This document shows, piece by piece, positions 41,360 to 54,804 of a stretch of DNA of 64,000 bases (its first letter is position 1; every line of letters starts with the position of its first letter). A program made the translations under genes and the position numbers. The stretch is from Rhodobacteraceae bacterium HLUCCA12 (GTDB lineage Bacteria; Pseudomonadota; Alphaproteobacteria; Rhodobacterales; Rhodobacteraceae), in contig LJSV01000002.1 in assembly GCA_001314715.1 (NCBI GenBank), forward strand, positions 186,001 through 250,000, read 5' to 3'. The notes below the pieces were generated by a model. That model saw only the letters and a list, made by a program, of their open reading frames with translations. It was not told where the DNA came from and ran no database searches.

Positions 41360-43702
41360 ATGCGCGTCTTCTGCATGAGCACCATTGCGCGCAACCTTGT
41401 GGGGGCAACCGGGCCACTGCAGCGTGTTGTGTCAATTTTCCTTTTTGTATCAATGGTTTCGCTTGGTGTTTCGGCCCCGGCCGAGGCGCAGACCTATCGT
41501 TTCGATTCGGTTACGGTCCAGGGAAATCAGCAGATCGATGCCGAAACCATCGCCGGATTCGCGAGAATCGCCCGCAACCGCAGCATGTCCGCGGCCGAGT
41601 TGAACGACGCCTACCAGCGCGTGGCCGGCACCGGCTTTTTCCGTTCGGTGGACTTTGCTCCCAGCGGGTCGCGGCTGATCATTCGCGTGCAGGAATACCC
41701 GATTCTGAACCGCGTGAATTTCGAGGGCAATCGCCGCGTTGACGACGAGGATCTGGCATCGGCGGTGCAATCGCGCTCGGGCCGGGTCTATTCGCCCAGC
41801 CAGGCCGAAGCGGATGCCAACACCATCGCCGAGGTTTATGCCGAACAGGGCCGCCTGGCCGCGCGCGTCACTCCGCGCCTGATCGAACGCGGCAACGGAC
41901 GTGTCGATCTTGCCTTCGAGATCGCCGAAGGCAGCATGGTCGAGATCGAGCGCATTAGCTTTGTCGGCAACCGCGACTTTTCCGAGCGCCGGTTGCGCAA
42001 CGCCATCGAAAGCGCGCAGGCCGGCTTTCTGAGCTGGCTGTTCCGCGTTGATAACTATGACGAGCGGCGCATTGCCGAGGATCGGCGAACCCTCCAGGAT
42101 TTTTACCTGTCGCGCGGCTATGCGGACGCGGAGGTCTTGTCGGGGGTCACCGAACTGACGCGCGAGCGCGATGGTGTCTATGTGACCTTTACCATCCGCG
42201 AGGGGCAGCAATACCGGTTCGGTTCGGCCTCGGTTCAGTCCGAGATCAGCGGCATCGACCCCGCTCCTTACGAAGAGGCGCTGACGGTTCGGTCCGGCGC
42301 GCTTTATTCGCCGGTGGTGATCGACAACCAGATCCAGCAGCTTGAGCGTGTCGCCTATCAGTCGGGCGAGCGTTTCGTGCGCGCCGAGCCCCGTCTGACG
42401 CGCAATGAACGCGAAGGCACGATCGATCTGGCGTTCGCGCTCGTGCGCGCCGATCGCGTGTTCATCGAGCGTATCGACATCGAGGGCAACACCACCACGC
42501 AAGACAACGTCATCCGGCGCGAATTCCACGTGGCCGAGGGGGATCCGTTCAACCCCCGCGAGATCCGCGAAGCGGCTTCGCGGATTCGCGAACTGGGCTT
42601 TTTCTCGGATGTGCAAGTGACGCCGCAGCCGGGTCGCGCGGACGATCAGGCCGTGGTGGATGTCGAGGTCGAAGAGACGACCACCGGCTCGCTGGGCTTT
42701 GGCCTGAGCTATGGCGCGAATGATGGCATCGGCGGCAACCTGACCTATAGCGAGGCCAATTTCCTGGGGCGCGGCCAATCGGTCTCGGCCTCCATCTCGA
42801 CCTTGGAATCGGCCCGCGCACTGGAGTTTTCGATCACCGAGCCGGCGTTGTTCGACCGCGATCTGGCGGCCAGCCTCGATATCGGGCTGAATTCGACGAC
42901 GGCCACCAGCGATGCGAATTTCGCGACCAGCGCGCTTCGGGTGTCGCCGTCGCTTGAATTCCCCCTGAGCGAGAATGGTCGCCTGTCGCTGCGCACGACC
43001 CTGATGCGCGACGACATCCGGGTCAACAACACCAGGCGCAACCCGATTTCGCCGCGAATCCGGCAGGATGCCCGGCAGGGACGGGTCATTACCTCGTCGG
43101 TCGGATACACCTATCGCCTGGATACCCGGTATCGCGGCAATACGCCCGACAGCGGTTTTGTCCTGCGCTTCGGCCAGGATATCGCCGGCCTGGGCGGCGA
43201 CCGCCGCTGGCTGCGCAGCACTGCGCTTGTCGGCTATGAGCGGCGCGTGTTCAACGGCGATGTCACCCTGCGCGCCGAGGCCGAGGCCGGCGCAGTGATG
43301 CACAATTCGGGTCCGAGCCGGATCAACGAGCGATTCAACCTGTCCAGCGACCAGATGCGCGGCTTCCGGCCCTTTGGCATCGGCCCGCGCGACCGGCGCA
43401 CCGGCGATGGGCTGGGCGGCAACTACTATGCCGTTGCCCGCCTTGAGGCCGAATTCCCGCTGGGCCTGCCGCAGGAATACGGGATCACCGGCGGCGCCTT
43501 CCTGGACGTGGGCTCGCTTTGGGGGATCGACGCCCCGACGGCCAACGTGATCGACCGCCGTGGCCTGCGCGCCACCGCAGGTGTGTCTCTGTTCTGGACA
43601 TCGCCGCTGGGCCCGCTGCGCTTCAACTTCTCGACGCCGCTGCGCCGCGATCCGCTGGATGAGGTGCAGTACTTCGACTTCTCGATCGCAACCCGATTCT
43701 GA
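41360..43702 (+). CDS. bamA: Outer membrane protein assembly factor BamA
   Basis: Central component of the BAM complex that folds beta-barrels into the outer membrane. A signal sequence (FLFVSMVSLGVSAPAEAQ), five POTRA domains (about residues 46-445; each with IEGN- or FEGN-like turns) and a 16-strand beta-barrel follow. The barrel contains the RGF motif (MRGFRPFGIGPRD) and a C-terminal aromatic residue (IATRF). 780 aa is near usual. The ATG at 41375 is an alternative start. It shares its stop with the skp start. Confidence 0.96.
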   Translation: MRVFCMSTIARNLVGATGPLQRVVSIFLFVSMVSLGVSAPAEAQTYRFDSVTVQGNQQIDAETIAGFARIARNRSMSAAELNDAYQRVAGTGFFRSVDFAPSGSRLIIRVQEYPILNRVNFEGNRRVDDEDLASAVQSRSGRVYSPSQAEADANTIAEVYAEQGRLAARVTPRLIERGNGRVDLAFEIAEGSMVEIERISFVGNRDFSERRLRNAIESAQAGFLSWLFRVDNYDERRIAEDRRTLQDFYLSRGYADAEVLSGVTELTRERDGVYVTFTIREGQQYRFGSASVQSEISGIDPAPYEEALTVRSGALYSPVVIDNQIQQLERVAYQSGERFVRAEPRLTRNEREGTIDLAFALVRADRVFIERIDIEGNTTTQDNVIRREFHVAEGDPFNPREIREAASRIRELGFFSDVQVTPQPGRADDQAVVDVEVEETTTGSLGFGLSYGANDGIGGNLTYSEANFLGRGQSVSASISTLESARALEFSITEPALFDRDLAASLDIGLNSTTATSDANFATSALRVSPSLEFPLSENGRLSLRTTLMRDDIRVNNTRRNPISPRIRQDARQGRVITSSVGYTYRLDTRYRGNTPDSGFVLRFGQDIAGLGGDRRWLRSTALVGYERRVFNGDVTLRAEAEAGAVMHNSGPSRINERFNLSSDQMRGFRPFGIGPRDRRTGDGLGGNYYAVARLEAEFPLGLPQEYGITGGAFLDVGSLWGIDAPTANVIDRRGLRATAGVSLFWTSPLGPLRFNFSTPLRRDPLDEVQYFDFSIATRF

Positions 43703-50252: not shown

Positions 50253-54469
<4,217 letters not shown>

Positions 54470-54487
54470 CGCGTTTTGTTCACATAT

Positions 54488-54502
54488 GTTCTTAAAAAGT
54501 TC
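54488..54502 (+). promoter_or_regulatory. LexA box upstream of a 41-codon ORF
   Basis: GTTC-TTAAAAA-GTTC (54488-54491, 54499-54502) exactly matches the alphaproteobacterial LexA consensus GTTC-N7-GTTC. A further GTTC lies at 54478-54481. A weaker inverted match (GAAC-N7-CAAC) sits at 54526-54540. The box lies 56 bases before the ATG at 54559. Confidence 0.75.
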
Positions 54503-54558
54503 TTGCATCTTTGGGCGTCGTATGAGAACAAAGCATCAACACGATGCGGAGAACACAC

Positions 54559-54684
54559 ATGCGACACTTCTTGCGCCCGAACCTGAAAAACGATGAACGC
54601 GCGGTTCTTCTGGGCGATGCGCTGGGGGCGCTTGCGCTGTTCGTGCTGTTGCTGGCTGCGCTGCATCTGCCCGTTCTGACCTGA
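54559..54684 (+). CDS. 41-residue predicted SOS-controlled membrane microprotein
   Basis: A small ORF behind a perfect LexA box, with GGAGA upstream of the ATG (six bases' spacing) and a strong terminator downstream. The product begins MRHFLRPNLKNDERA, a basic/charged N-terminus, followed by a hydrophobic segment ALGALALFVLLLAALHLPVLT that could span the membrane once. No known family recognised. Analogy with the SOS-induced membrane division inhibitor SidA of Caulobacter is by size, topology and control only, not by sequence. Confidence 0.7.
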   Translation: MRHFLRPNLKNDERAVLLGDALGALALFVLLLAALHLPVLT

Positions 54685-54767
54685 TCCGACCTGCCTCGCG
54701 GTCTGGCCCGGCGCTTTGCCTGTCCCGCGCTGAAAGCCATGAATGGCCCTACCAGACACGCCACTGA

Positions 54768-54796
54768 CCGCCGCATCCCGAATGCGGCGGTTTTTT
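54768..54796 (+). terminator. Rho-independent terminator after the 41-codon ORF
   Basis: CCGCCGCAT (54768-54776) pairs perfectly with ATGCGGCGG (54782-54790) around a five-base loop and is followed by TTTTTT (54791-54796). It ends transcription from recG or the small ORF before the convergent pcs gene. Confidence 0.9.
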
Positions 54797-54804
54797 CATG
54801 GGGT

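Follow-up and report, generated by a model that had tools for sequence, protein, structure and literature searches.

In the dual-function RNA SgrS/SgrT one RNA supplies both a small protein and base-pairing seeds, and in the type I toxin-antitoxin system TisB/IstR a membrane microprotein is placed under LexA control; toxins of the TisB type form an amphipathic, charged membrane helix, and type I toxins are not usually encoded by syntenic chromosomal genes that are nearly universal. SidA of Caulobacter crescentus, as described in the accessible part of PMC4211646, is a LexA-controlled inner-membrane microprotein of 29 residues that interacts with FtsW and FtsN, and the available text of PMC13396833 presents YneA of Bacillus subtilis as an SOS-induced division inhibitor with a reported FtsW interaction. 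In Rhodobacter sphaeroides a single transcript holds the small-protein gene ccaF1 and, processed from its 3' UTR, the sRNAs CcsR1-4 (PMC8307010, in extract).

The locus described here lies directly behind recG and is a defined, nearly universal candidate SOS gene of the Rhodobacteraceae, a large marine and soil family, numerous in the sea, whose members also produce gene transfer agents. It resembles SidA in a putative LexA-type control and a predicted single-helix membrane microprotein, of 40-41 residues against 29. SidA is a division inhibitor, a role that is only proposed for the recG-locus protein, and the structured 3' UTR at recG has no counterpart mentioned for SidA in the available part of PMC4211646. 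YneA belongs to another phylum and is likened by description, not sequence; SidA and YneA, both described as interacting with FtsW, are the nearest working models for the protein. The closest likeness in layout within the same bacterial family is ccaF1-CcsR1-4, a small-protein gene and a 3'-UTR RNA in one transcript, which differs in its stress control by the alternative sigma factors RpoE and RpoH rather than by a LexA-type operator, in its four sRNAs as against one closed multi-hairpin element, and in its product, given in the PMC8307010 extract as a DUF1127 RNA-binding protein. With SgrS/SgrT the locus shares a small protein and putative base-pairing seeds on one RNA, but its operator is LexA-type, its RNA lies 3' of the ORF and its action in trans is putative. 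With TisB/IstR it shares a predicted membrane microprotein under putative LexA control, but its helix lacks amphipathicity, complements to its own Shine-Dalgarno (SD) sequence are avoided in the UTR and the chromosomal synteny is conserved.

Gene, operator and RNA are well supported, and add one family of microproteins and one of structured RNAs, both found in none of the libraries searched; what they do, possibly pausing cell division, is hypothetical and open to several rival explanations. The locus would stand as a clear example of a membrane microprotein and a folded, possibly regulatory RNA sharing one SOS transcript, both of them short and easily separated by start-codon and loop mutations. 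The available texts of the open-licence literature on Rhodobacter/Rhodobacterales LexA, small membrane proteins, sRNAs and ribosome profiling make no mention of the recG-adjacent locus, and in the same literature we found neither mitomycin C/lexA RNA-seq in Rhodobacteraceae nor a paper on the coupling of DNA damage to division in this family; as only open-licence work was covered, this absence is not proof of novelty.

The microprotein gene behind recG

The window, by which we mean the whole stretch of 64,000 nucleotides analysed, carries on its forward strand, as do all features below, a gene that we take from the first-pass annotation and general knowledge to be recG (52379..54469, its start set at the in-frame ATG of MSGRPETL) and that serves as upstream synteny anchor. 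Behind it a ribosome binding site, GGAG, can be read at 54548..54551, followed by the 41-residue microprotein ORF (P0001, 54559..54684). When the window was re-read, the coordinates and elements given by the first-pass annotation, namely box, 41-codon ORF, ribosome binding site and terminator, proved right.

With the 41-mer as query, 137 of the 248 genomes in the window's GTDB family gave matches at E<=0.1. The recG C-terminus was located in 240 of the 248 and its place listed for 150 of the 240; among the 95 genomes with both places listed, 90 ORF matches share the strand of recG and lie behind it by 89-657 bases. Using a profile built on 16 members, the region behind recG, up to 650 bases each, was read in 154 genomes, 146 of the 150 listed having been reached through recG regardless of the ORF and 8 through an ORF match. 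The search downstream of recG that the first-pass annotation had called for finds the ORF conserved: a relative (E<1e-3) is present in 136 of the 146 genomes reached through recG, and in 144 of the 154 regions overall, 16 of these being the profile seeds. Left out of the 154 were G086 and G002 (recG end missed by the script), G012 and G137; G086 and G002 both possess ORF and box. The ten regions without a relative comprise G058, with a weak ORF and a box, the short reads G220 and G131, where 90 and 361 bases behind recG are readable, and seven that lack the ORF there, four of which have it elsewhere. ORF length is exactly 40 codons in 112 of the 144 members, and an SD-like word precedes the chosen ATG in 135, a count biased by the choice of ATG, which itself favours such words.

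Named relatives give a concordant distribution. From 270 found in GTDB genomes 80 were kept, including Ruegeria, Sulfitobacter, Phaeobacter, Tritonibacter and Rhodovulum, all titled Rhodobacteraceae-type except one titled only Alphaproteobacteria bacterium; by a pattern-based assignment 79 of the 80 lie behind recG, and the box is present in 79 of the 80. This set overlaps the genomes read behind recG, and the two are therefore not independent. A class-wide search of 385 genomes with profile A1 returned 8 matches, five of them family members and three weak ones outside the family that fall within open frames of 200 to 720 codons, leaving no convincing relative outside the family in that search. 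The resemblance to SidA suggested by the first-pass annotation stands for size, the single helix and control; no link in sequence was found, homology with SidA being unsupported by the same A1 search of 385 class genomes.

Purifying selection acts on the ORF and is specific to its frame. A comparison of 34 independent pairs, all of 40-codon ORFs, gives an in-frame pN/pS of 0.445 against 1.10 and 1.82 in the other frames, with 395, 243 and 631 changes at the first, second and third codon positions; the frame is conserved in relatives, and the breaks in it that the first-pass annotation had named as evidence against a gene are not seen. The consensus, MxxxIKxxxxRSxxTLxxDAxGAxALxVxLxxxLHLPxLx, in which M, D, G, L, L and P are nearly invariant, derives from an alignment of 139 of the 144 members, five having been removed by hand. 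The single membrane segment proposed at the outset is upheld by two predictions: 143 of 144 members reach a 17-residue hydropathy of 1.6 or more, and an AlphaFold model shows one helix at 13-40, where mean pLDDT exceeds 90 for residues 21-40. K or R follows the hydrophobic stretch in none of the 144 members, and the residues before the helix average 2.64 K+R and 2.42 D+E, for which reason an N-in topology is only weakly indicated.

The first-pass annotation thought that the gene might be unannotated, and the protein occurs in no protein library searched. Pfam and NCBIfam (139 members) yielded scattered matches of 1 to 4 members, at best E 0.0063, and PHROGs (14 members) one weak match, with no fitting family in either case, and a PDB profile search gave nothing at E<=1. 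Phage origin is rejected, one member (L110) matching nothing in phages and plasmids and A2 nothing in viral contigs. A conserved single-helix microprotein gene is thus present behind recG.

The LexA-type operator and its promoter

Three direct GTTC half-sites make up the operator (54478..54502), at 54478-81, after N6 at 54488-91 and after N7 at 54499-502. The last two form the GTTC-N7-GTTC box 3' of the recG stop (54469), GTTCTTAAAAAGTTC at 54488-54502, which the first-pass annotation had pointed out and which is present and conserved as described below. GTTCN7GTTC is the Caulobacter LexA motif in the accessible portion of PMC12700426, and in the genome of the window the same box type precedes lexA (GAACATGCGTAGAACTTATGGTGAAC) and recA (GAACAAGATGCGAAC). 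The box alone is not significant, about one being expected per window (2 matches against 1.27 expected); in the genome the pattern occurs 155 times against 98 for the reversed pattern. Its significance comes from conservation, since it lies between the recG stop and the ORF in 139 of 144 genomes, against a mean of 0.145 and a maximum of 2 in shuffled stretches and 0 for the reversed pattern in the same stretches. The second GTTC-N7-GTTC in the window, GTTCGGCCTCGGTTC at 42222-42236, has a G+C-rich middle, and about one such match is expected by chance.

The family consensus (139 of 144 genomes aligned) reads tttGTTCnCaaATGTTCTcAaAAAGTTCTTtACa, then ataTGAGAACAAAgnggcAACA, 118 of the 139 also having the additional GTTC upstream at N6. 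It includes an inverted, imperfect second LexA-type site, GAAC-N7-CAAC, placed in the window at 54526..54540, where it overlaps the presumed -10 region. GAACN7CAAC is found in 107 of the 139 genomes and GAACN7NAAC in 20 more, 127 in total, and the GTTC-to-GAAC spacing is 23 in 114; because the inverted site is kept at a fixed distance the operator seems to hold two opposed sites. These would bracket a promoter, read in the family as -35-like TTTACA, 17 bases and GAACAA and in the window (54503..54531) as TTGCAT at 54503-08, a 17-base spacer and a -10 region overlapping GAACAA at 54526-31; a sigma-70 scan of the window called no promoter at this presumed site. Motif and placement together point to control of the locus by LexA. 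The layout GTTCTT...GAGAACA has only two sites in this genome, the recG locus and G000:C12:41505-41530 (L161).

A structured RNA in the 3' UTR and its linkage to the gene

The first-pass annotation correctly named the layout of a self-contained SOS gene and missed half of it, namely that the 3' UTR is a conserved, covarying structured RNA (54691..54790), well supported by the held-out model R2, folding and family covariation. Its last hairpin is the intrinsic terminator (54766..54792), seen in a terminator scan and part of models R1 and R2, which begins 81 bases after the ORF stop; the terminator itself was rightly called, its stem scoring 11 pairs around a 5-base loop instead of nine bases. 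In the window the element consists of single-stranded CUGCCU (54691-96), a closing stem P1 (54698-706 with 54752-757 and 54759-761), hairpins at 54709-732, with loop UUUGCCUGUCCC, and 54736-747, and then the terminator as its end; the RNA displays CUGCCUG, CUGUCCC and UGCCUC. Folding energy for 54685-54797 is -45.6 kcal/mol (z -3.6); for the whole inferred transcript stability is unremarkable (z 0.12).

Two words recur in the 180 bases after the ORF stop, CTGCCTG in 114 of 144 genomes, against 5.8 in dinucleotide shuffles and 2 of 143 in the sequence beyond, and CTGTCCC in 112 of 144, against 5.3 and 6 of 143, respectively; their reverse complements occur in none of the 144 post-ORF stretches. 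A stem-flank test that is independent of any RNA model finds the CTGTCCC loop closed by a stem scoring at least 6 pairs in 68 of 163 occurrences against 10.2 shuffled, with 65 distinct stems among those of at least 5 pairs. Over 133 transcripts the unpaired fractions of the seed words are 0.56 and 0.74, against 0.37 for the remainder of the UTR, all taken without composition control. The seed word GCCTGTCCC is not spread genome-wide, with 43 occurrences against 96 for the reversed word.

Model R1, built from 20 Ruegeria-clade UTRs, was applied to 93 loci on which it had not been trained; it matched 82 of them at E<=0.01 and missed the window's own copy, which is divergent. The covariation sample, chosen after the R1 results, comprised 85 loci, 79 of the 93 and 6 training loci, the 14 left out being weak, near-duplicates or the window; the 66 that matched at E<=1e-4 formed the alignment. 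Paired cells amount to 89.8% against 71.9% shuffled, compensatory changes occur in 38 of 43 pairs against 28.3, and covariation is 0.382 against 0.130 (at most 0.059 in slid versions; 0 of 500 shuffles), and 437 cells are changed on both sides against 126 shuffled; because the alignment was fitted to the model, these figures lean towards structure. The outer stem and terminator have 94-98% of cells paired and the inner helices 67-89%, and covariation is slight in the 20- and 27-sequence seed alignments taken by themselves. Model R2, held out from the window's copy and that of its sister species, neither being in the training set, found both, the window's at 33.9 bits and E 1.1e-6 (next best match 14.9 bits) in a search of 1,401 bases with filters off, the E-values of R1 and R2 being rough.

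Against Rfam 15, 122,313 bases from 20 of the 80 named loci yielded nothing at gathering score, L231 2800-3400 nothing at E<=1, and the window only sub-threshold matches (CC1840 at 22.9 against 50 bits, Xoo2 at 22.5 against 45). R1 found no other copy in this genome, which is weak evidence as R1 also misses the known copy, and R2 matched only two family members among 240 class genomes, again missing this genome. The terminator, said in the first-pass annotation to deserve a check for conservation with ORF and box, is conserved within the RNA model; on its own a strict terminator scan recovers it in only 44 of 144 genomes (3 to 7 in five shuffles), probably because many terminators exceed the limits of the scan, and the RNA model finds more.

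ORF, operator and RNA also move together. The ORF lies away from recG in G060, G143, G175 and G131 and further behind recG than was read in G205; the box precedes it in all five relocated copies and is absent from the first 420 bases behind recG of these five genomes (361 in G131). G195, G167 and G234 have neither box nor ORF behind recG. A box conserved without the ORF, which the first-pass annotation regarded as contrary evidence, was not seen among the regions read except in G220, whose contig ends just after the box. Of 100 loci behind recG, R2 matched 89 at E<=0.01. All 89 are among the 93 loci that have the ORF, and none is among the seven that lack an ORF at E<1e-3, which include the weak G058 and the truncated G220; 16 of the 100 are training loci, and L110 at least comes from the same genome as a training sequence. 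All but one of the 89 matches are on the sense strand with their start no more than 120 bases 3' of the ORF end, and in L139 the ORF reads on into the RNA element. R2 did not detect the RNA in four loci with an ORF, nor in the weak G058. Three of the five relocated copies carry it (L251, L252 and L254, E<=3.4e-5); R2 did not detect it in relocated L250 and L253, and L257, behind recG, reached only 0.028. Taken together, the three parts have the appearance of a single dual-function mRNA under LexA control.

Proposed mechanism, alternatives and the ftsW leader

To the gene, its selection, the operator, the RNA structure and the linkage of these parts, all computational observations, a functional reading would add membrane insertion and topology, divisome inhibition, and an action and target of the RNA. 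We tentatively prefer, at somewhat short of an even chance, a single SOS transcription unit whose microprotein holds the late divisome off and whose 3'-UTR RNA acts in trans. In the undamaged cell LexA would occupy the GTTC operator bracketing the -35 and -10 regions; upon damage RecA would trigger LexA self-cleavage, releasing a short mRNA of about 260 bases from the presumed start. Translation of this mRNA would yield a 40-residue protein whose N-terminal stretch is mildly amphipathic and which has a single inner-membrane helix, and the 3' UTR of the mRNA would fold into the closed multi-hairpin RNA exposing the C-rich seeds CUGCCUG, CUGUCCC and UGCCUC. The microprotein might keep the late divisome off at the level of FtsW/I/N, like SidA and YneA, a role that is a guess by analogy, and the RNA could pair in trans with G-rich leaders of target mRNAs, ftsW being one candidate.

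The element could instead serve its own mRNA only, in stability, termination or localisation, and have no trans targets, which we consider unlikely. It lies on the same presumed transcript and ends in a terminator, and no target is proven, all as this reading would have it; but its stems covary while the loop words are fixed, which fits loop pairing or protein binding better than simple protection. Just as unlikely in our estimate is that the RNA is the main product, an SOS sRNA silencing many mRNAs through its C-rich seeds, with the ORF a modest accessory. The strong covariation and the accessible seeds would suit such an sRNA, as would the Rhodobacter precedent of 3'-UTR-derived CcsR1-4 behind ccaF1 (PMC8307010, available extract) and the depletion of self-pairing: 7-base complements of the UTR to its own SD occur in 11 of 141 cases, against 23.7 for foreign and 25.7 for shuffled UTRs, which would fit an RNA acting in trans and sparing its own mRNA. 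Against it, the ORF is under clear purifying selection and is present in 4 loci behind recG without detected RNA. With the own-SD complements depleted, not enriched, cis-repression of the gene's own start is rejected.

A little less probable again is a TisB-like SOS membrane toxin, a protein that would depolarise the membrane and slow growth while the 3' UTR controls translation or stability. The LexA-type operator and single-helix microprotein are what such a toxin would have, but the helix is not amphipathic (mean hydrophobic moment 0.07) and holds a charged residue within its 17-residue window in only 17 of 144 members; the gene is syntenic, chromosomal and nearly universal, unusual for a type I toxin; and the depletion of own-SD complements (11 of 141 against 25.7 shuffled) is the opposite of cis-repression by seed pairing. 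That an incidental GTTC pair merely stands beside an incidental short ORF has a negligible probability and is already refuted, for although about one box is expected in the window alone, ORF, box and RNA are conserved together in well over a hundred genomes.

For the preferred reading, a divisome-directed microprotein with a trans-acting RNA, ftsW is a candidate target and no more. When the leaders of six dcw-cluster genes were compared in 20 genomes, a 7-base complement of the genome's own RNA was found in 17 of 19 ftsW leaders, against 7.5 expected from background windows, and in 6 to 11 leaders of the other five genes. In a set of 102 ftsW leaders, 15 further genomes with ORF and ftsW place having been left out, 77 have AGGCAG, which is complementary to the RNA, within their last 45 bases. 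The frequency of this motif at -40 to -14 is 5 of 299 among other genes of the named loci, 0 of 43 among those of the window and 10 of 220 in the dcw loci, where ftsW is counted in; starts for this background were picked by a rough rule. A 7-base complement of the own RNA is present in the ftsW leader of 76 of 94 genomes (shuffled-RNA mean 34.5), against 20 (shuffled 21.5) and 39 (29.7) in two control windows. Own RNA fits better than foreign (2 of 200 reshufflings), yet it also does so in one control window (4 of 200), and own and foreign RNA give nearly equal duplex energies (-40.7 and -40.3, with -37.1 for shuffled RNA). In ftsW leaders AGGCAG lies off the SD position; the ddl leader also has GAGGCA, but at the SD position.

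Tests for compensatory change did not support pairing. Where the RNA is without CTGCCT the ftsW leader still has AGGCAG in 9 of 16 genomes, against 62 of 79 (p 0.11), and GGGCAG is not clearly commoner with a CTGCCC RNA (6 of 21 against 10 of 74, p 0.18, 95 genomes). The prediction, noted before the last 60 leaders were read, was not borne out: among the 13 variant-RNA genomes read first, eight retain AGGCAG (G165, G003, G032, G107, G156, G082, G171 and G191), six have GGGCAG (G024 and G019, and beside AGGCAG G165, G003, G082 and G171), and G238, G132 and G039 have neither. The complementarity of the ftsW leader to the RNA is real, but its pairing is unsupported by these compensatory-change tests, and the AGGCAG motif may serve ftsW's own translation. 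A dual block at FtsW, in which the microprotein would bind FtsW/I/N and the RNA pair with AGGCAG of the ftsW leader and lower FtsW synthesis, we rate as improbable, below each of the alternatives above save chance. The ftsW leaders (L264-L283, L284-L373) often contain a GACCCGGAAAACGGGC-like hairpin, GAGGCAG about 20-28 bases before the ATG, and GGCGGTATCC-ATG. In the sister species G222 (L265) the ftsW leader has CAGGACAG at -10 and the RNA hairpin (L032) has CTGTCCTG, an 8-base complement that is possibly a coincidence.
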